Positions 1 to 16,380 of a stretch of 64,000 bases of DNA are shown here, piece after piece. The position numbers and the translations under genes were made by a program. The stretch covers positions 1-64,000 of the forward strand of contig JAQCEQ010000004.1 in assembly GCA_027618565.1 (NCBI GenBank). The letters are read 5' to 3'. Source of the DNA: Planctomycetota bacterium (GTDB lineage: Bacteria > Planctomycetota > Phycisphaerae > Phycisphaerales > SM1A02). Below the pieces are notes generated by a model. The model was not told where the DNA came from and did not search any database. It saw nothing but the letters and a program-made list of their open reading frames with translations. The stretch's first letter is position 1. Each line of letters starts with the position of its first letter.

Positions 1-105
1 AGTGGACTTGTCGGGCGCGCGCCCGCGACACTGAAAAAGCGAATTCCTATCAATCGGACCTTGAATGACGAAGTGCGGGGGATGACGTCCCGCACGGAAT
101 TCTGA
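1..105 (+). CDS. C-terminal tail of an upstream ORF (partial, unidentified)
   Basis: Frame 1 is open from the window edge to a TGA at 103-105 and gives 34 residues ending in NDEVRGMTSRTEF. It lies just ahead of the glycosyltransferase on the same strand, so it may be the end of another gene of the glycan cluster. The piece is too short to assign to a family, and chance openness in GC-rich DNA is possible. Confidence 0.3.
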   Translation, partial: SGLVGRAPATLKKRIPINRTLNDEVRGMTSRTEF

Positions 106-142
106 GCGCAACCCGTGGCGAAATCAGAGAAGGAATTGAATC

Positions 143-1834
143 TTGTCGCATTCCTCCCAATCCTCGAAACCCTCCACCGAAGCAGCGCAGCTCGTGGATG
201 GTGATACCCAGAGCAATGAGATGGCTTGCTCGGGCGATGGTCCGGGCGGTGGCATCGACGGATGCGGGACGCGGACGATCGGCATGAGCGACGCGTCGGG
301 AGTGTCGGACGCGGCCAACGGCGCCGACCAACCTCGCTGCGTGATGCTGGTCGCCAACCGCTTCACCCACGACACCCGTGTCGCCAAGGAAGCCGAATCG
401 GTTGCCAGCCTTGGCGTGGACGTGCACGTCATCGCCCTAGCGGGTGGCGGGCTTCCAGAGTTCGAGCCGCGCGGGACGGGCGGGCGGACCTATTCGATCC
501 ATCGCATTCGGCCGGGCAGCCGCTTGTCGGCCGTTGCGATCCTCATTCTCGCCCGATGGACGGAGTGGCCGCTGACCCATCGGCTTAAGCCCGACGACAC
601 GCCGTTCGTTCGACCGAGACCCGGACAGACGATGGCACCGCGTCTGGACTCTAGGGCGGGTTCCGACTCGGGAGCCAATTCGGGGGCGGCTCAAGGCGCC
701 AACGAAAACAAGAAGAGGAAGAGGCAAAAGGGCCAACTGCCGGTCACCCGTAGTTTGGGCGCGATCGTCACGTCGATCAAGAACTCCTGCAATCGCGCCC
801 TTCGGTGGGTTGCCCTGAGCGTTCCGAACACCGGGGTGGTGGCGACATGGCGTCCCATGATTTCCCGGGCCCTCTCGCTTCAGCCCGACGTCCTGCACGC
901 CAACGACCTGAACACCCTGCCTGCCGGCGCGGTGGTGGCAAGGCGGTGTCGTTGCGGTCTCGTCTACGACTCGCATGAACTTTGGCTGCACCGGAACATC
1001 GGCAGCCGCAGCCGATTCGTCGATCGGCTTGTATGGGGACGATTCGAGCGTTCCCTCATCGGTCGCTGCGATGCTGTGATCTCCGTTGCCGCAGGGATCT
1101 GCGAATGGTTGGCTAGGAAGTACGGCGTGCAGCACCCGCATCTGGTGCGTAATGCCCAGCCCTACGAGGCACCGCCGAAACGGGGGCGTGAGATCGCCGA
1201 CCGGATCGGCCTGACCGATGACGCGCCGATCTGCCTCTACGCCGGTGCGATCACGTTCAATCGCGGACTCGAGTTGCTCATTGAGGCGGCGGTCCACATG
1301 CCCGGCGTGCACATCGTGATCATGGGCTATGCGACCAACGCGGAGTACGAGAAGGGTCTTCTGTCGTTGGCTCGCGCCAACGGCACGTTGGATCGCGTCG
1401 TCCATTTCCTTCCCGCGGTGCCCCGCGAGGACTTGCTCGTATGGACCGCGTCGGCGGACCTGAGCGTCGTGCCCACCCAGGGCGTGTGCATGAGCTACCG
1501 CTTCGAGGCTAGCAACAAGATCTTCCAAAGCCTCATGGCGGGCGTTCCGTTAGCCATGAGCGATCACGAGGAGAAGCGGAGGCTGGTCGAGGAGTGGGGT
1601 GTCGGCGTCCTCTTCGACGAGCGCGATCCGAAGGCTATCGCCGATTGCGTGCTGCGATGCCTCGCCGACCGCGAAGGCATGGTAAGGATGCGCGAGAAGT
1701 GCCTCCTCGCCGCGCGGACGCTCAACTGGGAGCACGAGGAGGCCACGCTGCTGTCGATCTATCGCAGCGTGCTTGGGGCGCGCCGCATTGCCGCCGAGAC
1801 TAGCGTTCCTGCCCATAGCCAAATGCCGCATTGA
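143..1834 (+). CDS. GT4-family glycosyltransferase
   Basis: Predicted to move a sugar from a nucleotide donor onto a growing surface glycan at the cytoplasmic membrane. The protein has 563 residues. The first 65 or so are low-complexity, then a GT-B N-terminal Rossmann strand begins (VMLVANRFTHDTRVAKEAES). The acceptor domain contains LVYDSHELWLHRN. The donor domain contains PICLYAGAITFNRGLELLIE and the conserved acidic segment YRFEASNKIFQSLMAGVPL, which is the E-x7-E region of GT4 enzymes. The C-terminal helix LNWEHEEATLLSIYRSVL is also typical. The start is TTG at 143, chosen because AGAAGGA lies about nine bases upstream; ATG codons further in are alternatives. The 3' end overlaps the convergent sulfotransferase by 35 bases. 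Donor and acceptor sugars cannot be told. Confidence 0.85.
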   Translation: MSHSSQSSKPSTEAAQLVDGDTQSNEMACSGDGPGGGIDGCGTRTIGMSDASGVSDAANGADQPRCVMLVANRFTHDTRVAKEAESVASLGVDVHVIALAGGGLPEFEPRGTGGRTYSIHRIRPGSRLSAVAILILARWTEWPLTHRLKPDDTPFVRPRPGQTMAPRLDSRAGSDSGANSGAAQGANENKKRKRQKGQLPVTRSLGAIVTSIKNSCNRALRWVALSVPNTGVVATWRPMISRALSLQPDVLHANDLNTLPAGAVVARRCRCGLVYDSHELWLHRNIGSRSRFVDRLVWGRFERSLIGRCDAVISVAAGICEWLARKYGVQHPHLVRNAQPYEAPPKRGREIADRIGLTDDAPICLYAGAITFNRGLELLIEAAVHMPGVHIVIMGYATNAEYEKGLLSLARANGTLDRVVHFLPAVPREDLLVWTASADLSVVPTQGVCMSYRFEASNKIFQSLMAGVPLAMSDHEEKRRLVEEWGVGVLFDERDPKAIADCVLRCLADREGMVRMREKCLLAARTLNWEHEEATLLSIYRSVLGARRIAAETSVPAHSQMPH

Positions 1835-2669
1835 GTGCGCCGATGGCGGGCTCCGATGCGATTTCCCGCAGCCGGTCGGCGTGCCGGGGATCCTTCCAGC
1901 CGCTGACGCGAGCGACCGTGATCGGCTGGACGGTCATTGGCTGTCTTTCCGCCGAGGTCTTGGTCGTTGCCGATGGCGACTGATACCGATCGAGCATGCC
2001 CATATCAAAGGGCTCGCCGAGGAAGTCCAGTACCCTCCGCGCCGAGCTCGGCGGATCGGCAACGAAATCCTCGTATCGGACCACGAGGTGGCGAGGATGA
2101 CGGAAGTCACGAATGTGCCGCGCCGCCTCGCAGTATCGTTCGATCGAACAGTGATAGCCCCGAGCCTCGTCCAGCACCGAAGTGAGCACGCCGCGCGCGT
2201 CGCGCACGGTGCTGAGAAAGAAGAGCGGAGGTTGCTCTCTGCCGGAGCTCGAGACCAGCGCCCCGTCAAGAGCCGCGAGTCGCCCGTAGTGTTCGCAGTT
2301 GCGAGGCGACTTCTCCGCCCAGACGTCCTTGGCTATGCCGTGGGCAAAGACGAACGCGGCCATGAGCGCGTCGAAGCATTCGAGCTCGTTGTCCGCAGCC
2401 GCAATAATCGCCCGAACCGGTTCCAGTCCGATGTCCAGTACGCGGTCCGCACGACGTGCGGATCGTTCGAGCCCGGCGTGAGACTGGCGTTGCTTGAGCG
2501 GACGGAGAAAGAAGCCGGTCTCGTCCGGGCTCACGATCGTGCGCGAACCGTCGATCACCGTGCGCAGAAGTGACGAGCCCGAGCGGGGCATGCCACCGAT
2601 GATGAGTCGCTTGCGAAACCCGACGGCGGTGCCTTCGGACCCCGATGATGCGCGGTGACTACTCCTCAT
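1800..2669 (-). CDS. PAPS-dependent sulfotransferase
   Basis: Predicted to transfer sulfate from PAPS to a hydroxyl or amino group, probably on a glycan given the neighbours. It has 289 residues. The 5'-phosphosulfate loop is near the N-terminus (IIGGMPRSGSSLLRTVID). The region around STVRDARGVLTSVLDEARGY corresponds to the 3'-phosphate-binding motif, and a later VRYEDFVADP segment matches the family. The gene is last in a minus-strand run after the deacetylase-sulfotransferase fusion and the ABC-like fragment; its ATG overlaps the fragment's stop by 11 bases, so translation may be coupled. No clear ribosome-binding site marks the ATG, and a start nearer the P-loop is possible. The 3' end runs 35 bases into the end of the glycosyltransferase. 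Confidence 0.82.
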   Translation of the reverse strand: MRSSHRASSGSEGTAVGFRKRLIIGGMPRSGSSLLRTVIDGSRTIVSPDETGFFLRPLKQRQSHAGLERSARRADRVLDIGLEPVRAIIAAADNELECFDALMAAFVFAHGIAKDVWAEKSPRNCEHYGRLAALDGALVSSSGREQPPLFFLSTVRDARGVLTSVLDEARGYHCSIERYCEAARHIRDFRHPRHLVVRYEDFVADPPSSARRVLDFLGEPFDMGMLDRYQSPSATTKTSAERQPMTVQPITVARVSGWKDPRHADRLREIASEPAIGALNAAFGYGQER

Positions 2670-3102
2670 CGTCTACCGCGTCGTCCTCGATGTCGCTCGG
2701 GGCGTCTGAGCCGAATCGCGGTCTGAGGGTCGAGCGAACCGAGTCGTACCACGAGTGGGGGCCGATTCCAAGAACGCCCGACTCGTCGAGCAAGGCGACC
2801 CAAGCGGCCCCGGGCGGCGCTGGCCGTGAGGGTTCGATCAGCGGGAACAGAAGGCGCGGAGGCTCGCGGAGGAGGGCGATCGTCTCGGGTTCGGCTGTCC
2901 GCAGCACGGCCTCGCTCATCACCAGAACCGGACGATCGGCGAGGAGCGCGCCCAGGATCAGCCGACCACGCGGCGCATTACGATCGGCCGAATACTGTCC
3001 GACCCAATGGGTATGGCGCTGACGGTTGCGCTTCGTGTCGCCGAATGCGCTGAGAATTGATTGGTCATCGAGATTGACCCAGTTCGCGCCGCGCGTCACC
3101 AT
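2659..3102 (-). CDS. C-terminal half of a degenerate ABC-type ATP-binding domain
   Basis: The 147 residues read like an ABC ATPase from the Q-loop onward. IAMVTRGANWVNLDDQSIL (partly upstream of the ATG) resembles the Q-loop region, QYSADRNAPRGRLILGALLA sits where the LSGGQ signature and following helix lie, PVLVMSEAVL matches Walker B with Ser in place of the Mg-binding Asp, and WVALLDESGVLGIGPHSWYD matches the usual region after the H-loop. Walker A and the upstream half are missing; the frame is closed by a stop about 60 bases upstream. The acidic C-terminus (DIEDDAVDDEE) recalls the tail of the 628-residue ABC-like protein at 9344-11230. The gene overlaps both neighbours by a few bases. 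It could be the remnant of a lost exporter or a kept partner domain; ATP hydrolysis is very unlikely. Confidence 0.55.
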   Translation of the reverse strand: MVTRGANWVNLDDQSILSAFGDTKRNRQRHTHWVGQYSADRNAPRGRLILGALLADRPVLVMSEAVLRTAEPETIALLREPPRLLFPLIEPSRPAPPGAAWVALLDESGVLGIGPHSWYDSVRSTLRPRFGSDAPSDIEDDAVDDEE

Positions 3103-5219
3103 CGCGATCGAGGGCGGCGAGACCAGATCGGGGCCGCAGCCAGCGCGAGGGGCGCGGACTTATCGAACAGCGGCAGCATTTCCAAACGAAGGGACCTGAG
3201 GTGAATCCGCGGCGTGTTCGCCGGCGTCGGCGACTTCGGGATATACAACGCCAGATTGAACCGCTGCGCGTCCGGCCTCACGCGAAACGTGAAATCGATG
3301 CGATCGCCGGCGGCTGGCGCGGGCTGGCACGGGCCGAGCAGTTGGAGCGATCGCTTCTCCAGCAGATCGCCGGCGCGGTCGTACATCAGGCAGAACAGCG
3401 TCGCCTCGTTGGCGTCGATGCTCGCGTCGAGCGAGCCGCGATAGTAATGCCCCGGTTGCGTGGCCCACCCCGCGACTTTCTTCAGACGATTCCAGGCGGC
3501 GCCGGCGAACAGCACGTGCGCATGCCGCTCCGGGTCGGGGACGATCTTGATCGACCCGTTGACGGCGCTGGCGCGGCACCCGACGAGCGACAGGTGCTCG
3601 GGGACCTGTCCGCCGCCGAACGACGTTTGGGTGACAAGCTGGGGCGTGGCGTTGGCGACGCCGGCGTGGAGGATGGCGGCCAGGGTCTCGTCGATGAGGC
3701 CGCTGCGCACTCCCGCCGTACGCGTCCCGACGTAGCCCAGCTTTTCCAGGATCGGATCGCAGATGCCGTGATACGTTCGCACCAGGGCTTCGGCCCAGTC
3801 GTCGTAATGCGGGAAGATATCTCTTCGGCCGACGTTGATTTTCTTCTCGTGCTCCACCACGGTCAGCCGCGGGTAAACCGCGATTCCCATGTCGCGGAGT
3901 TGCTCGATCAGATATTTCAGGTCGCGCACCATGCGCTCGAAGACCAGCGTCCGATGCGCCGCATCGAGCAGCGTCTCGTTGGTCAGCCGGGCATACCAGC
4001 AGGCTTTTTCGAAGCGGGAGAGACGATCCCACCCGTCCAGCGGCAACGGAGGATGCCGGCGGTCCTCCGGCGTGTCGTACCAGTCCCGATTCAGGACCGA
4101 TCGCACAACGTCCTTTGGATCGCGGACCAGATGGACGAAAATTCCTTCAGGGAAAATGTATCGCAGCGTCGGCAGAAAGCGGTCGAGGTAGACATTGGCC
4201 TCGCCCTGGTCGCCGCTCTGTGTTTCCATATACGCTCGCGTCTGTCCCAGCAGGTCCTTCACTTCCGCGGTGTCCTTGACGAGATCAGCGAAGTTCACTC
4301 CCGTGCGCTTGGCCGCGATGAGCTTTCCGTCGCGATATGCGTGGTTGAGCATGAACTCGTGGCGCGCCGTCAAGCTGGTCGCGCGATCGAGGAAATTTGC
4401 CAGCCATTGGGATCCCGATCGCGCGGTTGAGAGAAAGAAATAATACTTCTGCGGCCCGCGCCAGTAGATCGGGTGCATGAGGATCTGCGCGCGTCCACTG
4501 GTCAGCGGATGGTCGAGCGGGTCGTCGCTGCGGTTCCAGTCCCCGCCGCTGTCCGTGAAATACTGGTCGTGCGGCACGTGCCAGGCGTGGTATTCCAGGC
4601 CGAGTTGCTGCATGGAGACCGACCAAAGCGCAAGGCGCCGGCCATCGGCGTTCCGCTTGATCGCGTTGATCGCCGGATACTGGATGCGGTCCTGCTCGCC
4701 TTCAACGCGAACGCCCTCGGCGGTGCGGCCGGACTCCTCGGTCGTGGGGTCGGCAGGACGCAGCTCTCGAAAAATCCAGTAGTTGATGAACCCGCGTTCA
4801 TAGCATTCCCGGTCCCCGTGCGCCGCCGTGCCGATGATCCGAACGCCCGCCTGCCGGAGCGGTTCGAGCAACTCGGCCAAACGTTGTCCGACGTCGGAAA
4901 CCTGCCCCTGCACCCATTCGGTCAGCACGTTGACATGCAGCCCGACCTCGTGCCCGAATTCCTGGATCTGGAGGCATTTCTGCGCCAGCCGCGGGTCGTT
5001 CCAATACGGCGCGGTGTGCAGCAGGAAATACGTCGCGCGCACTCCGCGCTGGTGCTCCCAATGGCTCATTTCCATCGCGAAATCGAGATCGTAATCCACG
5101 TCGTGCCGCAGCGCCACCAGCCGTTTGCTCTGGCGGTCCTGGTGCAGCTCGCCGACCGTCACCGTCTGGCCAAAGTGATCGAGGTAATCGTAATAACGGG
5201 CGTTGATGGACATATGCAT
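3096..5219 (-). CDS. Fusion: NodB/WbmS-like deacetylase + sulfotransferase + C-terminal beta domain
   Basis: A 707-residue protein with three parts. Residues about 35-255 are a polysaccharide-deacetylase-like domain with RHDVDYD (Asp40 and Asp42) and GHEVGLH (His90 and His95) as likely metal and catalytic positions, ending at LMHPIYW. Residues about 257-500 are a PAPS sulfotransferase with the P-loop FFLSTARSGSQWLANFL and the 3'-phosphate motif VHLVRDPKDVVRSVLNRDW. Residues about 540-690 look like a beta-sandwich of carbohydrate-binding type, which is only a guess from composition. The fusion suggests removal of an acetyl group and sulfation on the same sugar, as in N-sulfation; this is inference. 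ATG at 5219 is preceded by a possible GGGAGAG-type sequence. A truncated glycosyltransferase end lies directly upstream on the same strand. Confidence 0.75.
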   Translation of the reverse strand: MHMSINARYYDYLDHFGQTVTVGELHQDRQSKRLVALRHDVDYDLDFAMEMSHWEHQRGVRATYFLLHTAPYWNDPRLAQKCLQIQEFGHEVGLHVNVLTEWVQGQVSDVGQRLAELLEPLRQAGVRIIGTAAHGDRECYERGFINYWIFRELRPADPTTEESGRTAEGVRVEGEQDRIQYPAINAIKRNADGRRLALWSVSMQQLGLEYHAWHVPHDQYFTDSGGDWNRSDDPLDHPLTSGRAQILMHPIYWRGPQKYYFFLSTARSGSQWLANFLDRATSLTARHEFMLNHAYRDGKLIAAKRTGVNFADLVKDTAEVKDLLGQTRAYMETQSGDQGEANVYLDRFLPTLRYIFPEGIFVHLVRDPKDVVRSVLNRDWYDTPEDRRHPPLPLDGWDRLSRFEKACWYARLTNETLLDAAHRTLVFERMVRDLKYLIEQLRDMGIAVYPRLTVVEHEKKINVGRRDIFPHYDDWAEALVRTYHGICDPILEKLGYVGTRTAGVRSGLIDETLAAILHAGVANATPQLVTQTSFGGGQVPEHLSLVGCRASAVNGSIKIVPDPERHAHVLFAGAAWNRLKKVAGWATQPGHYYRGSLDASIDANEATLFCLMYDRAGDLLEKRSLQLLGPCQPAPAAGDRIDFTFRVRPDAQRFNLALYIPKSPTPANTPRIHLRSLRLEMLPLFDKSAPLALAAAPIWSRRPRSRW

Positions 5220-5252
5220 TTCTCCCTCTACCCAAGGGGAGAGGGGACAAAT

Positions 5253-5336
5253 TCACCGTAACGAACGATACAGCTCCAGCAGCTTGGCCGACTCGTTTTC
5301 CCAGTTGAAGACATCGGCGGCGGCGAAGACGGATTT
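5253..5336 (-). pseudogene. Remnant of a glycosyltransferase C-terminus
   Basis: On the minus strand the frame ending in TGA at 5253-5255 encodes KSVFAAADVFNWENESAKLL followed by ELYRSLR. This matches the closing helix of GT4 enzymes; the intact glycosyltransferase at 143-1834 ends with LNWEHEEATLLSIYRSVL. An in-frame stop lies immediately upstream at 5337-5339, so only about 27 codons survive. The piece sits 33 bases ahead of the deacetylase-sulfotransferase fusion on the same strand, as the end of the preceding operon gene would. It marks a breakpoint near 5337, after which a plus-strand gene set begins. Confidence 0.55.
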
Positions 5337-5421
5337 TCACCCAACCTGTGGTACAATCCGCGACTTGACCGGATCGTGTGACTGTATATACGGCACGAAC
5401 GCGCTTTGAGAAAGGATCTGC

Positions 5422-6351
5422 ATGGCCGGCGACGGAGCCTGCATTGACTCACGACCGATGTTGTTTCCCTGTGGGATGTCCCGATCGGGCACCACGCTGC
5501 TGGCGACGGTGCTCGACTCGCATAGCCAAGTCTCGCTGGGATACGAACTTATCCCCCCGGCGCTGCCCGGACCGGCGGAGCTGCTGGCGGCGCTGGACAG
5601 GGGCCTGAAGTTATCGGACGGCGACTTTTCGACCGCGGGAAAGGCCCTTCGCAAGTCCGGTGAAAACGACGCCGGTCTGTTCATCACCCGCTGTTGTCGC
5701 GCCGGAATCGACGCCGACGACACCCGCCGCATCCTCACCGGCCTGCGCGACGAGGGTCTGACCAGAATCGCAACGTTCCGCGAACGCCTGACAGTCGCGT
5801 GGCGCATCGCCAAGGCCGGCCAGCAGAAGACCGGCGCCCAGCTCTTCGGCTTCAAGCTCAACATCCCTTCATACGAACAGTCGTACCAGTTTTTCCCCGG
5901 CGGATATTTCATCTACATCCTGCGCGACCCGCGCGACGTCGTTGCCTCGCACCGCGAGCGCGAGTTCGATCGTACGATGGAAGAAATCTGTAGCGCGTGG
6001 ATGAACTACACCGAAGCGTTCGAGAAGTTCAACAAAGCGCATCCGAAGATCAGCGTGCTGGTGCGCTACGAAGACCTTGTCTCTGACCCGCGCGCGACGA
6101 TTGGCCGGATGTTCAGCATTCTGCCGATTCCGCTGGAGGAGCAGGTCTTCCGCTTCTACGACTCCAAGGCCACCAAGCGGATCGCGAACCACCCGAACGC
6201 CGAAAATCTGCAAAAAGACTTCTTCAGCACGAGCGTGGCTCGCTGGGAAAAGGATTTGTCGGATGACGATGTTGCCCAGATCACCGCCCGATGTGGGGGG
6301 AAGATGGCGCAGTACGAGTATCCAACTGTCAAGGCATCCTCTGTGGGATGA
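5422..6351 (+). CDS. PAPS-dependent sulfotransferase (tandem copy 1)
   Basis: Predicted to sulfate a glycan or other acceptor using PAPS. It has 309 residues. The N-terminal loop PMLFPCGMSRSGTTLLATVL is the 5'-phosphosulfate motif and YILRDPRDVVASHRERE is the 3'-phosphate motif; VLVRYEDLVSDP follows at the expected distance. The ATG at 5422 has AAAGGA a few bases upstream, which supports this start. It is a close paralogue of the gene at 6514: both share FPCG(M/I)SRSGTTLLATVLD, RDPRD(V/I) and the ending pattern NAENLQKDFFSTS versus NTENLKKGFFTDS. Copies 1 and 2 are separated only by an inverted repeat. It reads away from the minus-strand fusion gene. Confidence 0.85.
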   Translation: MAGDGACIDSRPMLFPCGMSRSGTTLLATVLDSHSQVSLGYELIPPALPGPAELLAALDRGLKLSDGDFSTAGKALRKSGENDAGLFITRCCRAGIDADDTRRILTGLRDEGLTRIATFRERLTVAWRIAKAGQQKTGAQLFGFKLNIPSYEQSYQFFPGGYFIYILRDPRDVVASHREREFDRTMEEICSAWMNYTEAFEKFNKAHPKISVLVRYEDLVSDPRATIGRMFSILPIPLEEQVFRFYDSKATKRIANHPNAENLQKDFFSTSVARWEKDLSDDDVAQITARCGGKMAQYEYPTVKASSVG

Positions 6352-6366
6352 AGAGATTCGCAGCTA

Positions 6367-6496
6367 AAACTCGAATGACGAATGACGAATGACGAATCAA
6401 GCTCGAAACGAAGCAATCGGGAGCCTCGCCCTCCCAACTTCGCAGTTTTGAGCATTTGAACATTCGAATTTGATTCGTCATTCGTCATTCGAGTTT
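6367..6496. repeat. Imperfect inverted repeat, MITE-like, built on GAATGAC units
   Basis: The left arm (6367-6400) reads AAACTCGAATGACGAATGAC followed by a third heptamer copy and AATCAA. The right arm (6470-6496) is the exact reverse complement of the arm with two heptamer copies, so the arms match over 27 bases apart from one extra 7-base unit on the left. Pairing continues inward with CAAGCTCGAA against TTCGAATTTG, and the centre holds a small GGGAG...CTCCC hairpin. Intergenic repeats built on this unit occur in planctomycete genomes as far as I recall. No transposase is present, so it would be a non-autonomous element. It lies in the gap between the two paralogous sulfotransferases. Confidence 0.7.
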
Positions 6497-6513
6497 CGTC
6501 ATTAATCAACAAG

Positions 6514-7485
6514 ATGCTGCTCCGTCGATTGATTCACGATTACATCCTCCCGGTCAGAATCATCAGCGAAGAGCCGATGGTCTTTCCGTGCGGGATTTCG
6601 CGCTCGGGTACGACGCTGCTGGCGACGGTGCTCGACGCGCACAGCAAGATATGCCTGGGCTACGAGCTTCTCCCGCCGCCGCTGGCGGGGGTCGAGACGG
6701 TCCTGGGCAAGCTGCGCGATGGAATGACGCTCGCCCACAACGATTTCGCGCGGGCGGGGTCGCATCTGCGCAAAGGCGGCGACAAGGACATCGGCCAATG
6801 GCTCAGCCGCTGCCATCGAGCCGGCACCACTGCCGAAGATGTCGAAGAGGTCCTGAAAACGTTGATCGGCCAGGGAAGGACCGGCCTGACCACGATGGAA
6901 GAGCGCCTGCGACTCTGCACGATGGTCGTGCAAAAACCGCAAAAGCGAAACGGCTCGCTGCTCAGCGGGTTCAAGTACAGCGGGCACCGTTTCGACGACA
7001 GAATCGCGGCGTTCCCCAACGCCTCGTTCATCTACATCCTCCGCGACCCGCGCGACATCATCGTTTCCATGCGCGAGCGCGAATTTGACCGTACTCTGAG
7101 TCAGATCTGCGGCGACTGGAACCGGCACCTGCACAGCTTCGAGACGTTTCTGGCCAGGCATCCGAAGCAGGCGGCAATGATCCGATATGAAGATCTGGTC
7201 AGCCAGCCGATCGAGACGATCGGGAATTTTTTTTCCGTCCTGCCGGTCAATCCGGAACCTGCGGTGTACGAATTTCAGAACTCCACGGCGACGGTGCTCA
7301 ACAGCCGGCACCCCAACACCGAGAATTTGAAGAAGGGCTTTTTCACGGACAGCATCGGCCGCTGGCGGACGCAGCTTCAGGCGCCTGACGTCGCCGCGAT
7401 CGAGCGCGAGTGTCAGCGGGACATGCCTCGGCACGGATATGACCTGAGTTCGACGAATCACAAACCCATGACCACAGCAACCTAA
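6514..7485 (+). CDS. PAPS-dependent sulfotransferase (tandem copy 2)
   Basis: A 323-residue sulfotransferase and a paralogue of the gene just upstream. The phosphosulfate loop is PMVFPCGISRSGTTLLATVL, the 3'-phosphate motif is YILRDPRDIIVSMRERE, and MIRYEDLVSQPIETIGNF follows. The start is uncertain. ATG at 6514 adds a 21-residue leader that the sister protein lacks in this form, and the DNA just upstream is the inverted repeat with no evident ribosome-binding site; the ATG at 6577, just before VFPCG, is possible. It is followed after 12 bases by the deacetylase gene, consistent with one operon through the ABC-like gene. Sulfation of a different position than copy 1 is plausible but not shown. 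Confidence 0.83.
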   Translation: MLLRRLIHDYILPVRIISEEPMVFPCGISRSGTTLLATVLDAHSKICLGYELLPPPLAGVETVLGKLRDGMTLAHNDFARAGSHLRKGGDKDIGQWLSRCHRAGTTAEDVEEVLKTLIGQGRTGLTTMEERLRLCTMVVQKPQKRNGSLLSGFKYSGHRFDDRIAAFPNASFIYILRDPRDIIVSMREREFDRTLSQICGDWNRHLHSFETFLARHPKQAAMIRYEDLVSQPIETIGNFFSVLPVNPEPAVYEFQNSTATVLNSRHPNTENLKKGFFTDSIGRWRTQLQAPDVAAIERECQRDMPRHGYDLSSTNHKPMTTAT

Positions 7486-7497
7486 CAGACCACCGCG

Positions 7498-8346
7498 ATG
7501 GCAAAGTACCCGACGTACAAACTGCCCTGGGCAAAAATCACCGCCCAGAAGCTCCTGTTCAGCCGCCGGCGGAAGTACAACCCCGACGACTATCAGAAGC
7601 TGCTCGAACCATACATGAAGACCCACGAGAGCCTCCGCCTGCGGGATTACGTGCGCGAAAAGAGCCTCGACGGACGCAAGATCCTGATCATCCGCCACGA
7701 TGTCGATCACGATCACCTGACTGCGGTGAAGATCGCCAGGTGGGAGCGCGACCGCGGCCTTAACACGACGTACTGCCTTCTCCATACGGCGTGGTACTAC
7801 GGCGAGCTGACTGACGGGCGCTATCGTCACACGCAAGATGTCCTCGACGCCGCCCAGCAGATCGTCGAGCTTGGGCATGAGGTGAACTTTCACAATAACC
7901 TCGTGGTGCTGGCGCTGACCGAAGGCATCGACCCGCGGGCGATGCTCCGCGAGGAGCTGGATTTTTTCCGCAGTTACGGCGTTCCCATCGTCGGCACCAG
8001 CACGCACGGCGATGCCCTTTGCCGCGAGCTCAACTTCCGCAACTGGGAACTGTTCAAGGAATGCTGCGATGACCGCTTCGGCGGGCCGCGAACGGTTGCG
8101 TTCAAGAAGCCGACTGGCGGCCAGTCGTCGATTGAGCTCGGCAAGCTGTCGATGTTCGATTTCGGCCTTGAATACGAGGCCTACGACATCGCCCGCGATC
8201 TCTACCACACGGACAGCGGCGGAAACCTCCGCCTCCGGGAAAACACCCGCGGTCGAAAGGACTTTGGAAGAACGGACAAGGAATCCGGCCAAGTCGTCGG
8301 CGTGCTCACGCACCCGATATGGTGGGATTTCAACGATGCCCGGTAA
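7498..8346 (+). CDS. NodB/WbmS-like polysaccharide deacetylase family protein
   Basis: Predicted to remove an acyl group from an amino sugar, with a divalent metal. It has 282 residues and no signal peptide, so it probably acts in the cytoplasm on a precursor. RHDVDHDH (Asp68 and Asp70) and GHEVNFHNN supply the Asp-His-His type metal site, PIVGTSTHGD follows, and LTHPIWW closes the domain. It is a paralogue of the first 255 residues of the fusion at 3096-5219: compare RHDVDYD, LLHTA, GTAAHGD, HTDSGGNLR versus FTDSGGDWN, and HPIYW. The stop overlaps the probable start of the FkbM gene by 11 bases, pointing to coupled translation. Confidence 0.75.
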   Translation: MAKYPTYKLPWAKITAQKLLFSRRRKYNPDDYQKLLEPYMKTHESLRLRDYVREKSLDGRKILIIRHDVDHDHLTAVKIARWERDRGLNTTYCLLHTAWYYGELTDGRYRHTQDVLDAAQQIVELGHEVNFHNNLVVLALTEGIDPRAMLREELDFFRSYGVPIVGTSTHGDALCRELNFRNWELFKECCDDRFGGPRTVAFKKPTGGQSSIELGKLSMFDFGLEYEAYDIARDLYHTDSGGNLRLRENTRGRKDFGRTDKESGQVVGVLTHPIWWDFNDAR

Positions 8347-9340
8347 AGGAATGAAATGTTTTTATGATCTACTGGTCTACAGAGTCGATCGCTTCCTCGA
8401 CGCGCATTTTTTGAAGCGGTTTGAACCCGCCGTGCGGCCGAAGCTGGTGCGCCTGGCGGAGCTGCGCGGGGAGACGCCGAAAGAGGTGGTGCGCAGGTTC
8501 AGGAAAAAGAAGATCCGGCGCATTCCGCCGAGCATTCTCAAGCACACGCATATCCTGCTTGCTGCCAAGTTCGTCGAAGCCGGCGAACGCGAGGGCGTGC
8601 CGTTCGTTCGTCTGGAGAACGGGCGGATTTTCTACGGGCACCCGTCGCGCAAGCAGCACGAGCGCGAATTCGCGTTTCTCGCCGACAAGCTCTCGCCTTG
8701 CCTGACGCCGTGGACGTACCTGACCGCCAAGGACGTTGCCATCCGCTATCTGCACGACAAGTGGTATCCGGAGAAATACCTCCCCGGCCCCGGCGGGACG
8801 ATCGTCGAGGTCGGCGCTTACGTCGGTCACAAGACGATGCGATTCGTCGATCAGCACGTCACGACCAGCGGCAAGGTGCTGGCGATCGAGGTCATGCCGG
8901 AGAACATCCCGATCCTGAAGCGCAACATCGCCGACAACGGGATGCAGGCGTGTATCGATGTGATGCACTGCGGCGTTTGGCGCGAGCCGGGGCGGCTCGC
9001 GGTCAAAGGAATGGGCCGGCAGCGCAATTCGCTGGTCAGCATCGATCATCTCGACCGCGAAAACGAGGCGGTGGTCCCCACGGATACGCTCGACAATATC
9101 CTCGTCAAATGGGACCAGCCAAAGGTCGATTTCATGATCATCACGGTCAACGGCGCCGAGATCGAGGTGCTACAGGGCCTGGACAAACAGCTTCACCGGA
9201 TCAAGGTCCTGTACATCGCGGCCCATTTCAAGCGCGACGGCAAGCCAACGCGCGACATTTGCCTTGATATGCTCCGCAAGAAGGGGTGCAAAATCTTGAA
9301 TGAAGGCCAGGACGCGGGCATCTATGCGCAGTGCTCTTGA
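8336..9340 (+). CDS. FkbM-family methyltransferase
   Basis: Predicted SAM-dependent O-methyltransferase, commonly found in surface-glycan and polyketide clusters. From ATG 8336 it has 334 residues. The SAM-binding part is GGTIVEVGAYVGHKTMRFV followed by KVLAIEVMPENIPILKRNI, which carries the acidic end of strand beta-2. The later VDFMIITVNGAEIEVLQGL matches the FkbM pattern DxxxIDVEGxExxVLxG, but with Thr-Val-Asn-Gly in place of the usual Asp-Val-Glu-Gly, so the catalytic details may differ. The frame stays open much further upstream, but that stretch is inside the deacetylase gene and is not used here. ATG 8336 overlaps the previous stop; ATG 8351 is an alternative. The N-terminal 120 residues are not recognised. 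Confidence 0.72.
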   Translation: MPGKGMKCFYDLLVYRVDRFLDAHFLKRFEPAVRPKLVRLAELRGETPKEVVRRFRKKKIRRIPPSILKHTHILLAAKFVEAGEREGVPFVRLENGRIFYGHPSRKQHEREFAFLADKLSPCLTPWTYLTAKDVAIRYLHDKWYPEKYLPGPGGTIVEVGAYVGHKTMRFVDQHVTTSGKVLAIEVMPENIPILKRNIADNGMQACIDVMHCGVWREPGRLAVKGMGRQRNSLVSIDHLDRENEAVVPTDTLDNILVKWDQPKVDFMIITVNGAEIEVLQGLDKQLHRIKVLYIAAHFKRDGKPTRDICLDMLRKKGCKILNEGQDAGIYAQCS

Positions 9341-9343
9341 GGC

Positions 9344-11230
9344 ATGACGGAACGCCGAATGAATTCAGAAACCTCATCTGCTGTTCCGCACTCCGAGCCT
9401 TCCGCCGCGACTGCGCCGGATGCCGATGCGAATCTCCACTTCGATGCCGGGACGAAGCTGTCGCGCTACACCGCGTTCCTTCGCTGGATGGCATCTGATG
9501 CGTTCTGGCGCTTCCGCTGGCTGGTTATCGGCGTCATCGCCGCCGGCGCGGCGGCGGTGGCGCTTCAGATCAAAGCCATCGCGCTCACCATCTACTACAC
9601 GCATCTGTTCGAGGACAACAAAACCTTTACGCTCTTCGGCCACAGCTATCACCCACGGGAATCGATGGCGCTGCTGCTGGGATTTGGCAGCGCGGTGTTG
9701 GTGGCGCTGGTCATCTCGGCCGTGCTACAGTATGCGTCGCGCGTATGGACGCTGTTGCTCCGGCGCCGCTACGCCGAGTTCTGCTCGATCCGAGTGCTGG
9801 CGATCCTGAAAGGCGCGCCGCACACCGTGCCCGGCAGCCCGTTGCGGTTCGACGACGCCACTGCCACGGCGTTGGTGCGCAGCGAATCGCTGTATTGCGG
9901 CAGAATGGTTTCCATCGCCGTCGGCGTCGTCACACCGGCCATCTGTTTCATCGCCTCCGTCGGCGTGCTGTTCTACGTTCATTGGACGCTGACGCTCCTG
10001 CTCGTCGGGATGATCGGCGTCTGCTCGATTTTTCTCTATCGGGTCAACGTGAAGGGCGCGCTCTATTCGCACCTGGCGGAAAAGCACGGCCGCGGCGCCG
10101 TCGCCGAATACCGCAGGATCGTCCAGGCCCACAAGTCGGCCATCATCGTTCAGCGCGACTTCGACGCTGAAACCTCGGTGCGCTCCGACCCGATCAAGAA
10201 CTATTTCGACGCTTACATGGTCCGCCTGCGCGTCGTCGCCGACAGTGAATTGATCGGCAATATCTTTCTCGGCGTCGTGCTGGCCATCAGCATGGTCGCG
10301 CTGGGCCGCGGCGCGATCCTGCGCGGCAGCGGCTGGGAAGGCATGGTTGCCTATCTCGTCGCGTTGCGCTACGCGCTTGTGACATTCCGCGGTGGCGTGC
10401 GGACGATCACGTCGTTCAACCGCTTTTATCCGCAGGTGCGGCGATACTTCGATTTCGTCCGCTGGTCAGTTGAATCCGACGCCCCGCCCGCGCCGCTGCC
10501 CGCCAGCGTCGGGCTGCGATGCCCGTCGCCGAAATTGGAAGGCTCGCTTCGCAAGTTCATCATCGATTCCCATGGCCGGATCGCGCTGTGCGCCCCGATT
10601 GATTTGAATCGTTACACCTTGCCGTTCATCATCCGCTGCATGATCGGAAACGACCCTTCGCTGGTTCGCTCGATCGTTGCCAGCGCCGCGTGGGCGACGT
10701 CGTCGTTCCGATTTCCGCCCGGCCCGATCAGCCGGTCCCCCGGATTCGACGACCCGTCTTTCCAAAGAGATTTCGACGCTCTGGCCGCCGGCAGCGGGCT
10801 GGAGCAGAAAATCGCCGATCAGTTGTCCCAAGGCCTCGCGACTCCCATGCCCGAAGTCGACCGCGACGGGATCAATCCTGCCATCAAGTTTCTTTTCAGC
10901 CTCGTCCCCGTGTTTCGCTCACGGGCCAGTTGGGTTTTTCTCGACGGAAACGATCTGGCGGCGCTTGAAGTCGATGCGCGGAAGCAAGTCCTGGACCGCC
11001 TGGCGGGACGGGTCACGGTCATTCTTTACAACGAAAGCCTGGCCGGCGTCGGCCAATCCGGCGAGCAGGTCGTCGCGGTCCACGACGCCGCCGAACAGAT
11101 CGCCCTCGGGCCGATCTCCTGGTTCAACGAGCATCGCGGGCAAATCCAGCAGATCGTGCTGACCGCCATCCCCTCGCGCAAGGCCCGTATCGACGATGAC
11201 GACGACGACGATACGGACGACGACACGTAA
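9344..11230 (+). CDS. ABC-exporter-like membrane protein with degenerate ATPase domain
   Basis: A 628-residue protein with the layout of an ABC exporter half-transporter. Residues about 45-375 hold roughly six membrane segments (for example 58-75, 108-129, 188-212, 214-232, 302-320, 333-347), with long helices between. Residues about 390-610 follow the ABC ATPase fold but have lost its motifs: at the Walker A site HGRIALCAPIDLNRYTLPFI has Arg423 where the Lys should be and no glycines; QGLATPMPEVDRDGINPAIK replaces the signature; ASWVFLDGNDLAALE keeps Asp534 but has Gly for the catalytic Glu; VTVILYNES lacks the switch His. The C-terminus is a run of aspartates (617-628). It probably does not hydrolyse ATP itself. 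A heterodimer with an active partner, a scaffold, or decay towards a pseudogene are all possible; the intact 628-codon frame argues against simple decay. Confidence 0.65.
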   Translation: MTERRMNSETSSAVPHSEPSAATAPDADANLHFDAGTKLSRYTAFLRWMASDAFWRFRWLVIGVIAAGAAAVALQIKAIALTIYYTHLFEDNKTFTLFGHSYHPRESMALLLGFGSAVLVALVISAVLQYASRVWTLLLRRRYAEFCSIRVLAILKGAPHTVPGSPLRFDDATATALVRSESLYCGRMVSIAVGVVTPAICFIASVGVLFYVHWTLTLLLVGMIGVCSIFLYRVNVKGALYSHLAEKHGRGAVAEYRRIVQAHKSAIIVQRDFDAETSVRSDPIKNYFDAYMVRLRVVADSELIGNIFLGVVLAISMVALGRGAILRGSGWEGMVAYLVALRYALVTFRGGVRTITSFNRFYPQVRRYFDFVRWSVESDAPPAPLPASVGLRCPSPKLEGSLRKFIIDSHGRIALCAPIDLNRYTLPFIIRCMIGNDPSLVRSIVASAAWATSSFRFPPGPISRSPGFDDPSFQRDFDALAAGSGLEQKIADQLSQGLATPMPEVDRDGINPAIKFLFSLVPVFRSRASWVFLDGNDLAALEVDARKQVLDRLAGRVTVILYNESLAGVGQSGEQVVAVHDAAEQIALGPISWFNEHRGQIQQIVLTAIPSRKARIDDDDDDDTDDDT

Positions 11231-11346
11231 GAAAAAAGATTGAAGTCTCCTCCGGCTCACGTCCAATAATCCCAAACAGGTCTTGCGCGACATGGATGCC
11301 GCGCAGCAAGTACAGGAATTGGACTGAACTGAACCGGAGGTTCATT

Positions 11347-11544
11347 GTGAAAAGCAGGTTGATTTACGGGGTGGCGTTGTTGTCGTTGGCGGTTGTGGCA
11401 GCAACGGGATGCGCGAAGAAGGGGAACACTGCGGGAACGAATGGCTCGGCGTTGGACATCTCGTCCCCGCCGCCGGCCGTCGCCTACGAGCCGCCCGTCG
11501 CCGACCCGGTCACGGTCATCGGTGCTTGGGGGACGGCTGGCTGA
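11347..11544 (+). CDS. Small lipoprotein, probably truncated
   Basis: The start is GTG at 11347 with GGAGG seven bases upstream. The 65 residues begin with KSRLIYGVALLSLAVVAATG and a Cys, a lipoprotein-type signal, then a short Pro-rich segment (SSPPPAVAYEPPVADPV). The reading frame ends abruptly with VTVIGAWGTAG. Planctomycete lipoproteins with this kind of start usually continue into a LysM-type domain, which is missing here. The end coincides with the change of DNA signature near 11.5 kb, so the gene may have been cut by a rearrangement or assembly junction. Function unknown. Confidence 0.5.
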   Translation: MKSRLIYGVALLSLAVVAATGCAKKGNTAGTNGSALDISSPPPAVAYEPPVADPVTVIGAWGTAG

Positions 11545-11567
11545 ACTCGCTGTCCGCGCGCTTCGCA

Positions 11568-11966: not shown

Positions 11967-14900
11967 TCACGAGCACCCCATGCTCTGCCCGCAGTTCACG
12001 CACTTGTAGCACGTGCCATTGCGGATGGTGATGGAGCCGCAGGCATCGCAGGCGGGCGCATCGCCCATCATGCCTTGGTTGGCGGCGTCAAGGGCCGACC
12101 GAGGCACTCTCGCGGATGACGCTGCTGGTGAAGTCACGCTCGCTCGGTGCGCGCCAGCGCCGCCCGCGACCGCCCCAGCCCGAGCAACGGCCCAGAGCGC
12201 CGGTCCACCGGCTGATGGTGTGCCGGATGAAGTCGCGCGTGAGGGCGAGGTTGCGGCGCCGTTCGAGGTCGGCGAGTTCGATGTGGCTGGCGTGGTCCGG
12301 CCCGTTGCCGGCTCGACGATCGTCGTTCCCATGCGATCCTTGCATGTCGTGTCCTCCGTGACGGTTCCGGCGGGGCCGGCCGCGGGTGTGTGCATCGCGG
12401 GTGCGTTGCTGGACGGGACCTTGGCGGGAGTGGCGCGCGGGGGCGCGTTCTCGTCGCGGTATCCCTCGATGAATTCCATGCCGAGCCAGCGGAAGATGTA
12501 GTCCACCAGGCTCTTGGCAAACGGAATGTCGTTGTTGGTGGTCATGCCCATCGGCTCAAACCGCTGGTGGGCGAACTTCTTGACCAGGCTCTCGACCGGG
12601 ACGCCGTACTGCAGCGCCACGCTGATGGCCGTGCCAAGCGAGTCCATCAGTCCGCCGATGGTGGAGCCTTCCTTGGCCATCGTGATGAAGAGTTCGCCGG
12701 GGCGGCCATCTTCATAGAGGCCGACGATGAGGTATCCCTCATGCCCCGCCACATTGAATTTATGGGTGAGGGAACTTCGCGTGTCCGGCAGGCGGCGGCG
12801 CATCGGCTTCTCGACGATGCGTTCCACGATGCGTTCAATGATCTGGGGCTCTGGAATCACCATGGGGGCGAGCCCCTCGGTGTCCTCCGCCTCGCGCTCG
12901 ACCTTGGAGTCCTCGGTGGCCTTGTCGGCGCCGGAGTTGAGCGGCTGGCTCAACTTGCACCCATCGCGATACAGCGCGTTCGCCTTCAAGCCAAGTTCCC
13001 AGCTCATCCGGTAGCAGGCACCGATGTCAGCGACCACGGCCTCATTGGGGAGGTTGATTGTCTTGCTGATGGCGCCGGAGATGAACGGCTGCGACGCCGC
13101 CATCATGAGGATGTGTCCCTCTGGTCGGATGAAGCGCTGTCCCAGGCATCCACAGCGGTTGGCGCAGTCAAAGACCGGGAGGTGCTCTCCCTTGAGTCCC
13201 GGCGCACCCTCCACCGTCAGCGTTCCACAGATCGTGCGGTTGAGCGTGTCGATCTGCGCGCGCGTGAGTCCGAGCGCCCGCAGGCCATCGAACTTCTTGT
13301 CCGCGCGCGCAGCCTCCGGCGAGAGGCCTTGCGCAAGGATGATCCGCTCGGGCATCGACCAGGACGAGAACGAAAAGGAGACCTCGGGGACACCAGGAAG
13401 CGTGTTCTCGATCGCGACCAACTCCTCGTTGGTGTAGCCCTTGCCCACCAGCCACTCGCGCAGCGTGGGAGCGCCTGCCTCTGACAGCCCATCGGCCGCC
13501 GGCACGCGCGCGTCCAGCGACATCGTGCCCATCACATACGCCAAGATGGCGTCCGATTGCTGCTGTGGGTAGCCCAAGGCCTTGAGCGCGGGGCGCACGG
13601 ACTGGTTGGCGATCTTGAAGTACCCGCCGCCCGCCAGCTTCTTGTACTTGGTGAGCGCGAAGTCCGGCTCCACGCCCGTCGTATCGCAATCCATCAGGAG
13701 GCCGATGGTGCCGGTCGGCGCGATCACGGTGGTCTGCGCGTTGCGGAATCCGTGGCGCTCGCCGAGGGAGACCGTCTCGTCCCAGGACCGGACGGCGGCC
13801 TCCAGGAGTCCCGTCGCGTTGGCGATGTTGATCTTGCCGCCCGCAAAGAGCGCGTGGTCGATCGGCACCGGCCGAATCCGGAGCGACTCCCACTCGGGGC
13901 TGATGCGATTGAGCCCCTTGGCCGCTCGACGATGATTGCGCATGACGCGCAGCATGGAATCACGGTTGGCGTTGTAGCCGGCGAACGCGCCAAGCTGCCC
14001 AGCCAACTCCGCGCTGGTGGCGTAGGAGCGACCGGTGAGCAGGGCACTCACTGTCGCGCAGACGGCGCGGGCCTCGTCGCTGTCGTAGGGGATGCCCGCC
14101 TGCATGAGCATCGCGCCCAGGTTGGCAAAGCCGAGGCCAAGCGTGCGGTACTTCCAGGAGAGCTCTGCAATCTCGCGGCTGGGGAACGCGGCCATCAGCA
14201 CCGAGATCTCCAGTACCACCGTCCAGAGCCGGATCGCGTGCTCGTAGCCGGGGATGTCGAAGGTGCGAGTCTCAGAGTTGTAGAAGGTGATCAGGTTCAG
14301 CGACGCCAGGTTGCACGCCGTGTTGTCCAGGAACATGTACTCGCTGCACGGGTTGCTGGCGTTGATTCGACCGCCCTGGGGGCAGGTGTGCCAGGCGTTG
14401 ATGGTCGAGTCAAACTGGACGCCGGGATCCGCGCAGCGCCACGCGGCAAAGTTCACTTGCTCCCAGAGGTCCGTCGCACGGATGGTCTTGTGGACCGTCC
14501 CGTCGGTACGGCGGGTGAGCGTCCAGGAGTCGTTGCGCTCCACGGACTCCATGAACTCGTCCGAAATCCGGATCGAGTTGTTGGAGTTCTGGCCCGAGAC
14601 CGTCATGTAGGCCTCGCCGTTGAAGTCGTAGTCAAGCGAGAGGTTCAGCTTCGCCGCCAGCTCGCGGTGCTCGGGGGCGATGTGCTTCATTCCCTCTACC
14701 AAGGCCGCCACCTTGATTTCCTCGCGGACCTTCCAGTTCACGAAGGTCTCGATATCCGGGTGATCCACGTCCAGGCACACCATCTTGGCTGCACGACGCG
14801 TGGTGCCGCCCGACTTGATCGCGGCTGCGGCGCGGTCGCCGATCTTGAGGAATGACATCAGACCGCTGCTCTTGCCGCCGCCCGAGAGCGGCTCGTTCTC

Positions 14901-15569
14901 GCCGCGCAGGTTGGAGAAGTTGGTGCCGGTGCCGGACCCGTACTTGAAGAGCCGCGCCTCGCGCGTCCAGAGGTCCATGATGCCGCCCTCCTTCACCAGG
15001 TCGTCGCTGATCGACTGGATGAAGCAGGCGTGCGGCTGAGGGTGGGTGTAGGCGTCGTCGGCCAGCCGAGGCTGGCCGGTGGTCGGATCGGAAATCCAGT
15101 GGCCCTGGGCCGGGCCGTTGATCCCGTAGGCCCAGTGGAGCCCGGTGTTGAACCACTGGGGGCTGTTGGGAGCGGCCATCTGCCGCAGCATCATGAACGC
15201 GATCTCGTCGTAGAACGCCTCGGCGTCCTCGGTGGTCTCGAAGTAGCCGTGCTTCTCGCCCCAGTGCCGCCAGCAACCCGCCAGACGGTGCACCACCTGC
15301 CGGACGCTGCGCTCAGGGCCAAAGACGAACTGCCCATCCTTGACGAGCGGCGTGCCCTCTTCGGTCAATTGCGGCACGCCGGCCTTGCGGAAGTACTTGC
15401 TCACGACGATGTCCGTCGCCAGCTGGCTCCACTCCTTGGGAATCTCGGCATCGCGCATCTCGAAGACGGTGCTGCCGTCCGCGTTGGAGATCTTGCTTGA
15501 GCGGCGAGTCCACTCAACCGAACTGTAGACATCCTTGCCTGCAGTGGTGAAACGACGGGTGACCTTCAT
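11967..15569 (-). CDS. nrdJ: Class II (adenosylcobalamin-dependent) ribonucleotide reductase
   Basis: Reduces ribonucleotides to deoxyribonucleotides with a B12 radical. From ATG 15569 it has 1200 residues; this start is chosen because AGGAAGGA lies 11 bases upstream and MKVTRRFTTAGKDVYSSVEW is family-like, although the frame is open to 15803. Core motifs include YGSGTGTNFSNLRGENEPLS, INASNPCSEYMFLDNTACNL, APTGTIGLLMDCDTTGVEPD and KLAGGGYFKI. Near the C-terminus a low-complexity Ala/Ser/Pro/Thr linker of about 130 residues leads to CDACGSITIRNGTCYKCVNC, the Cys-rich tail that shuttles reducing power. The gene stands alone on the minus strand, with two NrdR-like boxes about 640 bases upstream and a structured stretch downstream. 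Confidence 0.93.
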   Translation of the reverse strand: MKVTRRFTTAGKDVYSSVEWTRRSSKISNADGSTVFEMRDAEIPKEWSQLATDIVVSKYFRKAGVPQLTEEGTPLVKDGQFVFGPERSVRQVVHRLAGCWRHWGEKHGYFETTEDAEAFYDEIAFMMLRQMAAPNSPQWFNTGLHWAYGINGPAQGHWISDPTTGQPRLADDAYTHPQPHACFIQSISDDLVKEGGIMDLWTREARLFKYGSGTGTNFSNLRGENEPLSGGGKSSGLMSFLKIGDRAAAAIKSGGTTRRAAKMVCLDVDHPDIETFVNWKVREEIKVAALVEGMKHIAPEHRELAAKLNLSLDYDFNGEAYMTVSGQNSNNSIRISDEFMESVERNDSWTLTRRTDGTVHKTIRATDLWEQVNFAAWRCADPGVQFDSTINAWHTCPQGGRINASNPCSEYMFLDNTACNLASLNLITFYNSETRTFDIPGYEHAIRLWTVVLEISVLMAAFPSREIAELSWKYRTLGLGFANLGAMLMQAGIPYDSDEARAVCATVSALLTGRSYATSAELAGQLGAFAGYNANRDSMLRVMRNHRRAAKGLNRISPEWESLRIRPVPIDHALFAGGKINIANATGLLEAAVRSWDETVSLGERHGFRNAQTTVIAPTGTIGLLMDCDTTGVEPDFALTKYKKLAGGGYFKIANQSVRPALKALGYPQQQSDAILAYVMGTMSLDARVPAADGLSEAGAPTLREWLVGKGYTNEELVAIENTLPGVPEVSFSFSSWSMPERIILAQGLSPEAARADKKFDGLRALGLTRAQIDTLNRTICGTLTVEGAPGLKGEHLPVFDCANRCGCLGQRFIRPEGHILMMAASQPFISGAISKTINLPNEAVVADIGACYRMSWELGLKANALYRDGCKLSQPLNSGADKATEDSKVEREAEDTEGLAPMVIPEPQIIERIVERIVEKPMRRRLPDTRSSLTHKFNVAGHEGYLIVGLYEDGRPGELFITMAKEGSTIGGLMDSLGTAISVALQYGVPVESLVKKFAHQRFEPMGMTTNNDIPFAKSLVDYIFRWLGMEFIEGYRDENAPPRATPAKVPSSNAPAMHTPAAGPAGTVTEDTTCKDRMGTTIVEPATGRTTPATSNSPTSNGAATSPSRATSSGTPSAGGPALWAVARAGAVAGGAGAHRASVTSPAASSARVPRSALDAANQGMMGDAPACDACGSITIRNGTCYKCVNCGQSMGCS

Positions 15570-16380
15570 GGAATCTGGAATCCTTCCTGAGAGCGGAACG
15601 GGGGGAGCTTCATCGGGATGCTTGCCTGAACAGGGGAACGGGCTGGGGGACTGGACGGGTGGATGGGGGGCTGTGTGCGAGTGGATGCCTGGTTCGCGCG
15701 AACGCGACCGATGGCGCGCATGATCCTTCATGCACGCTGGTGCGCCTTTGATCCGGGTCCGGCGGCAAACACGCGCAGGGCCGGGATCAATGGCGCCGAT
15801 CAATCAGTGGGGGGAGTGTCCGTGGGCAGAGTGGCCCAGGCCAGGAACATGGGTGGGTCGTTGCGAAATCCCGAGCGAGCGGACTCGCTGGATGTTGCGA
15901 CGGACGGGAATTGGAAAACTGGGGAGACAAGCCACACCACGATCCTCCTCAGGTGCCCTGGCACCCGATGTCGTTGCTCTTCGCACTCACTCGCGGTGTG
16001 TCCCGCTCACGAGCCTGCGCATCGCATCGACGAACCGACCTCAGATCTCTGGACCCGAGATCGACCACCTGTGCCGGGCGAGCATCCTTGCCGTTCCGGC
16101 GGCCGATTCGGGCACCCACCGAAATGGGCTCCAGAATCGGCACATTCATCGGCGCCGCCCTCCGTGGGCGACGCACCCGACCCCACATACGGGTCAGGTC
16201 CGATCACCATACCACTAGGGGTTGTGGTTCCCATGGGTGTCCACCACAAATTGTTGGATTTTGTGTGCCAATCCCCTAACTGGGTGAGAACCATATTCTT
16301 ACGACTCTTTCCCCCATGGAGGCGGTTCCGACACGCTTTCCACATCCGTGGTGTGGGCTTCCTAGACTCGCCCCTTCGCC
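15570..16380. other. Long divergent intergenic region between nrdJ and the helicase gene
   Basis: About 810 bases without a clear gene. The part near 16.2 kb carries two NrdR-like palindromes. A short minus-strand frame at 15949-16149 (66 codons, ATG with GGAGGG about 11 bases upstream) starts MNVPILEPISVGARIGRRNG, but it uses many rare Arg codons and has no known relative, so it is not called as a gene. Plus-strand frames that run into the helicase gene look non-coding. If transcription of nrdJ starts near the boxes, its mRNA has a leader of about 600 bases. Confidence 0.5.
16212..16257 (-). promoter_or_regulatory. Two candidate NrdR boxes
   Basis: Box 1 (16212-16227) reads CCACTAGGGGTTGTGG, a near-palindrome. 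Box 2 (16244-16257) reads CCACAAATTGTTGG. Their centres are 31 bp apart, three helical turns, which is the spacing known for paired NrdR sites. The outer CCACNA/TNGTGG parts fit the NrdR consensus but box 1 has CCCC instead of the usual AT-rich centre. They lie 130-170 bases ahead of the helicase start and about 640 ahead of nrdJ. Confidence 0.45.

Follow-up and report, generated by a model that had tools for sequence, protein, structure and literature searches.

The closest described counterpart of the locus reported here is human NDST1, an enzyme of heparan sulfate synthesis in which a deacetylase is followed by a sulfotransferase in a single chain. A search of open-access papers revealed no description of a bacterial NDST-like fusion. 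In Nod factor tailoring (NodB, NodH/NoeE), an amino-sugar oligomer is likewise deacetylated and sulfated. WbmS-like proteins occur in Bordetella O-antigen loci, i.e. in a surface-glycan context, and sulfated glycosaminoglycan-like material has reportedly been found in anammox granules. Pure cultures of Pontiella form a mainly N-sulfated, glycosaminoglycan-like exopolysaccharide for which enzymes were only suggested, and glycosaminoglycan-active sulfotransferases were stated as not known from prokaryotes (PMC7356697). In the production of heparin precursors in bacteria, expression of active NDST has been called the bottleneck (PMC13353177). SbmA/BacA finally represents a proton-driven, ABC-exporter-type transmembrane domain (TMD) which functions without a nucleotide-binding domain (NBD) (PMC13316013).

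The locus resembles several of these systems in part. Its fusion protein D shares with NDST1 the domain order, His/Asp-rich motifs and a barrel-like deacetylase domain, but the two are only 11% identical in the alignment and D gives no match to the NDST Pfam deacetylase family. D furthermore lacks the N-terminal domain of NDST (its deacetylase begins near residue 1) and the transmembrane (TM) anchor, carries a C-terminal carbohydrate-binding module (CBM)-like domain instead, and is a bacterial protein encoded beside a GT4 glycosyltransferase and a pseudo-ABC protein. Three further sulfotransferases (B, E and F) weakly match the Nod factor O-sulfotransferase NoeE (NCBIfam); however, NodA and NodC are missing among the window's nine proteins, the deacetylase lies outside the NodB Pfam family, and deacetylase and sulfotransferase are fused. 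PF13469-type sulfotransferases beside GT4 enzymes are shared with Pontiella (PMC7356697). Protein I, likened to SbmA by description, differs from this peptide importer by a degenerate NBD, an acidic tail and its linkage to glycan enzymes.

Gene content of the locus

The window, i.e. the analysed stretch of 64,000 nucleotides, opens contig C34 of a genome of 2.26 Mb that is 97% complete. Domains were assigned by Pfam/NCBIfam at E ≤ 0.01. Positions 143–11230 encode a GT4 glycosyltransferase, an FkbM methyltransferase and a protein resembling ABC exporters, together with four sulfotransferase (ST) domains of the PAPS type and two deacetylase (DAC) domains that are CE4-like and related to each other (Table 1). 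An earlier reading of the sequence alone had listed the same components, with the deacetylases labelled WbmS-like. The GT4 and FkbM enzymes are now confirmed by Pfam/NCBIfam, the four ST domains by PF13469 (in B, E and F, and below the cut-off in D), and the kinship of the two deacetylases by the homology of D and G; ORF C and the third, CBM-like domain of D are additions to that inventory. Four of the seven Sulfotransfer_3 matches of the genome lie inside 5.3 kb (C34:2004–7224), a clustering far above chance for 2.26 Mb. E and F are 47% identical, and F is separated from G by 12 bases. Because base 1 is a contig end, the cluster may extend beyond it. No TM segments were predicted in A–H, which fits a cytosolic PAPS-dependent reaction. 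Between I and the downstream ribonucleotide reductase-like gene, positions 11348–11541 hold a short ORF whose product has a lipoprotein-like signal (MKSRLIYGVALLSLAVVAATGC).

Table 1. Features of the window and the basis of their assignment
Feature	Position	Strand	Basis or context
Dispersed ~84-bp repeat end, core AAAAGCGAATTCCTATCAAT	1–57	+	Contig end, upstream of GT4 A
A, GT4 glycosyltransferase, 563 aa	143–1834	+	Pfam PF13439/PF13692; synteny
B, stand-alone PAPS-type sulfotransferase, 289 aa	1800–2669	-	PF13469, 68.8 bits (cut-off 27)
C, ORF of 147 aa, C-terminal remnant of a second exporter-like gene (D-linked type)	2659–3102	-	Profile, BLASTP
D, fusion DAC-ST-CBM-like, 707 aa	3096–5219	-	AlphaFold2, NDST1 alignment, full-length orthologues
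D aa 524–686, CBM29/CBM22-like beta-sandwich	3162–3650	-	Foldseek, VIA
D aa 256–500, PAPS sulfotransferase domain	3720–4454	-	VIA; weak PF13469
D aa 1–255, CE4-like deacetylase domain	4455–5219	-	RHDVD, GHEVGLH, HGD, LMHP; invariant columns
E, stand-alone sulfotransferase, 309 aa	5422–6351	+	PF13469, 68.4 bits
F, sulfotransferase, 323 aa	6514–7485	+	PF13469, 71.8 bits
G, CE4-like deacetylase, 282 aa	7498–8346	+	Similarity to Halochromatium fusion; alignment
H, FkbM-family methyltransferase	8351–9340	+	TIGR01444, 73.9 bits (cut-off 37.7); PF05050
I, pseudo-ABC exporter (PABC), 628 aa	9344–11230	+	Model, Foldseek, motif absence
Putative ribonucleotide reductase-like ORF	11967–15803	opposite to I	Read from sequence

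Architecture of the fusion protein D

The AlphaFold2 model of D (19 orthologues; pLDDT 85.7, pTM 0.83) consists of three domains. In the deacetylase domain H39, D40, D42, H90, H95, H134, D136 and H249 are invariant in the alignment of relatives, and the motifs RHDxD, GHE..H, HGD and L.HP are conserved in D and G, which are 33% identical over 246 aa (BLASTP, E 5e-28). Neither protein matches a deacetylase Pfam family at E ≤ 0.01, PF01522 (CE4/NodB) and NDST included; an hhalign comparison with a CE4 enzyme of the same genome gave a weak match (29% probability, 41 columns around GHE..H), and sequence-profile searches yielded no convincing solved relative of the DAC, Y or D families. Judged from their motifs, D and G are putative deacetylases.

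The sole Pfam match of D at E ≤ 0.01 is PF13469, scoring 23.8 bits alone and 27.8 bits with in-frame neighbours (cut-off 27). Structurally, the ST domain resembles the ST of CurM (VIA Z 14.4, rmsd 3.9 over 210 residues) and TPST1 (Z 14.3). The C-terminal domain resembles CBM29 (Foldseek E 1.4e-7) and, by VIA, CBM29/CBM22 (Z 13.2, rmsd 2.8 over 130 residues; 130–135 aligned). In the model this domain points to a glycan as substrate, a fold alone being no proof of carbohydrate binding. Foldseek further aligned the D model with human NDST1 (PDB 8cd0) over 629 columns (E 5.6e-5, probability 0.99, TM 0.23). An alignment of this length implies that both domains match in the same order, and the low overall TM is expected if the domains sit differently relative to one another. 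NDST1 was returned by Foldseek alone, whose list is without residue ranges; among the VIA matches of D, rows for ST and CBM dominate, and the DAC domain is barely represented. The earlier view that these enzymes are unrelated to those of heparan sulfate synthesis has thereby become doubtful, even though D is not matched by the Pfam NDST-deacetylase family.

Distribution, linkage and fusions in other genomes

Full-length or nearly full-length orthologues of D with 33–52% identity were found in Phycisphaerae/Planctomycetota MAGs, in Ca. Brocadia and its relatives, in Denitrovibrio (Deferribacterota), in a Thermodesulfovibrionia MAG (Nitrospirota), in a Coleofasciculus-labelled cyanobacterial MAG, in alphaproteobacterial MAGs (Hyphomicrobiales and one of Rhodobacteraceae) and in the cultured Halochromatium glycolicum DSM 11080. 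In samples of 391–396 genomes, taken from the class and from the phylum, about 1% contain strong matches. The cassette, previously considered for planctomycetes, is indeed present in Planctomycetota, but it is rare there and extends to several other phyla. In the tree of D the window protein is unplaced and two branches are very long, so that lateral transfer has to be argued solely from the patchy distribution and the repeats described below; a search for plasmid carriage of D gave nothing relevant.

The genetic linkage is conserved in other Phycisphaerae, where the sequence-only reading had suggested looking for it, and beyond. The A-type glycosyltransferase (GT4A) lies directly next to D in L067–L078 and L088, while PABC adjoins D in L075, L078, L080, L082 and L084 and lies within about 10 kb of it in L073, L074, L076, L083 and L088. 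PABC, D and GT4A are consecutive in a single-contig genome (L128), and D and PABC form one protein of 1311 aa in L077. The pairing of deacetylase and sulfotransferase recurs as fusions in at least three arrangements detected by profiles, namely ST-DAC (L083, L086), YDAC-ST (L062) and DAC..ST (L060), which bears out the significance earlier attached to it. In the ST-DAC proteins of Halochromatium and a Phycisphaerae MAG, an E/F-type ST is joined to a G-type DAC; the DAC half of the Halochromatium protein is 64% identical to G and its ST half 42% to E and 39% to F. Another family of deacetylase-like proteins, YDAC (hhalign 97% to DAC), is frequent in the cassettes and missing from the window. 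Its members have ca. 310 aa, the motifs QHDVD, GYHQN, PHGG and IHPQ and no Pfam match (e.g. L077 13999–14925, L076 12180–13142). YDAC is also fused to FkbM in L083 and L088, which implies that the deacetylases are not bound to sulfotransferases alone.

The neighbourhoods also offer hints to sulfate supply and acceptor. In Denitrovibrio (L073), genes for PAPS synthesis and recycling lie a few kb upstream of GT4A-D, namely those of CysD, of a CysNC that includes APS kinase and of an Inositol_P phosphatase resembling CysQ, and in a Hyphomicrobiales MAG (L079), whose D relative carries two copies of the CBM-like domain, a sulfate permease follows D directly. The genome under study has one APS kinase. 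Other neighbours point to amino or acidic sugars, in particular acetamido or nonulosonic ones: GFO_IDH+hexapeptide and DegT proteins (L072), NeuB, GNAT and cytidylyltransferase (L080, L085) and Wzy_C (L084). A nonulosonic acid as acceptor in the present organism was considered and rejected, since its genome lacks NeuB; the acceptor may differ between hosts. Elsewhere in the same genome, on a 6-kb contig (G000:C31; L109 1081–2825), a CE4 deacetylase gene with the motif SIDVEDW lies beside a formyltransferase-like gene and possibly belongs to a separate exopolysaccharide locus.

Proposed mechanism and alternatives

That the locus is a glycan-tailoring cassette which deacetylates and sulfates is well supported. 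It is best read as a mobile, membrane-anchored cassette that would deacetylate an amino-sugar glycan and subsequently sulfate it, most likely on nitrogen. Building on gene content, homology, domain order, fusions, linkage and the loss of ATPase motifs, we propose the following scenario, in which substrate, sulfated atom, order of steps and role of I are conditional. At the cytosolic side of the membrane, A would add a sugar to an amino-sugar glycan, which is probably lipid-linked. D might bind this glycan via its CBM-like domain, remove an N-acetyl group by its CE4-like domain and transfer sulfate from PAPS, most likely onto the freed amine, by its ST domain. F and G, encoded by two adjacent genes that are fused elsewhere, would perform a second deacetylate-then-sulfate step. 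O-sulfation would probably fall to B and E and methylation to H, and I, an ABC-exporter relative lacking a working ATPase, might tether the enzymes to the membrane or flip the product without ATP. Taken in full, with all roles as given, this scenario has in our judgement an even chance of being correct.

Sequence cannot separate an N- from an O-sulfotransferase, and N-sulfation, as suggested earlier for a polysaccharide, is favoured here as the most economical reading, given that DAC-ST fusions recur and that the domains are ordered as in NDST. The glycan part of that suggestion has gained from the CBM-like domain and the sulfation part from the sulfation genes beside relatives of D, whereas the nitrogen as sulfated atom is still deduced indirectly. 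Alternatively, the deacetylated amine could stay free or become otherwise substituted while all sulfotransferases act on hydroxyl groups, as in Nod factors. The NoeE resemblance of B, E and F is in line with this possibility, and several stand-alone sulfotransferases and the FkbM enzyme could act on hydroxyls. However, deacetylases and sulfotransferases are fused in varied orders and families, as fits consecutive action on one residue, and none of the window's nine proteins is matched to an N-acyltransferase by Pfam/NCBIfam. We therefore regard exclusive O-sulfation as rather unlikely. A lipid headgroup, a small molecule or a protein as target instead of a polysaccharide seems improbable: the sulfotransferases to which the ST domain is structurally closest, those of CurM (polyketide) and of tyrosylprotein, would suit such substrates, but the CBM-like domain shared by D and its relatives, the constant GT4 partner and the Wzy_C, NeuB and sugar-nucleotide neighbours argue for a glycan.

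Returning to deacetylation followed by N-sulfation, we tentatively suggest a bacterial NDST-like pathway in which a DAC-ST-CBM enzyme, a GT4 dedicated to it and an ABC-derived membrane scaffold with a dead ATPase, carried on a mobile cassette, produce an N-sulfated glycosaminoglycan-like surface polysaccharide. If this is true, the Ca. Brocadia cassette could explain the sulfated glycosaminoglycan-like material of anammox granules. The cassette provides specific candidate genes for bacterial N-sulfated glycans, including those of the cultured purple sulfur bacterium H. glycolicum DSM 11080, and a natural bacterial DAC-ST enzyme would bear on the bacterial production of heparin precursors.

The pseudo-ABC protein I and the remnant C

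Protein I gives a weak MsbA family match (Pfam/NCBIfam, E 1e-4). Its model contains six TM helices, a degenerate NBD (about aa 388–616) and an acidic tail, and the best Foldseek matches are MsbA structures (E 2e-12), the folds of both six-helix TMD and NBD being present. An ordinary ATP-driven exporter in a standard ABC-dependent surface polysaccharide locus would share this fold, but the Walker A lysine/serine and the LSGGQ signature occur in none of the eight NBD-bearing members (I and seven relatives), whereas two true ABC exporters from L070 keep both motifs in the same alignment. In the proteins of L061, L082, L083, L084 and L088 the NBD is mostly or wholly gone and the acidic C-terminus retained. 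Such an exporter is accordingly very improbable; the exporter-like fold recognized previously has stood, the ATPase motifs are absent, and I is probably not driven by ATP. The family would add another ABC exporter fold without ATPase. The Asp/Glu run that closes the pseudo-ABC proteins (11192–11227 in the window) persists even where the NBD is missing. A match of G010 to I (E 2e-8) was dropped, as the family profile gave no support.

Residues 49–147 of ORF C match the profile of the D-linked PABC subtype (E 5e-7), and C is 31–40% identical to the C-terminal ends of relatives of I (BLASTP). Since the D-linked PABC gene of L075 and L077 stands directly behind D, the place taken by C here, the window retains one intact copy (I) and one decayed copy. 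L074 offers a parallel, with a 120-aa fragment after D and a second, intact PABC copy.

Repeats and a sister contig

A chance or assembly-made gathering of unrelated tailoring enzymes in a hypervariable island, for which the contig end, the dispersed repeats, a sister contig of different structure and the patchy distribution could speak, is largely refuted by partners and fusions that recur in several phyla and by linkage in unrelated genomes, and we give it hardly any credence.

The repeat core AAAAGCGAATTCCTATCAAT has nine sites in the genome, compared with none for the reversed control. The sister contig L081 is 99.94% identical to window positions 3044–11282 and diverges beyond 11282 (L081 1–1291), where a repeat end directly after I is followed by another sulfotransferase ORF. 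Repeats and divergence suggest an island with variable edges, or else an assembly difference. L081 is filed under a Verrucomicrobia MAG (isolate casp150), as might result from misbinning plus strain variation or from an assembly difference. Altogether the repeat end was seen in at least ten places, namely at 1–57 of the window, at 1–68 and 1207–1290 of L081 and in C8, C11, C24, C18, C4, C12 and C50 of G000; several copies are located at the ends of contigs, and some immediately precede glycan genes, i.e. the GT4 gene A and sulfotransferase genes in C8 and L081.
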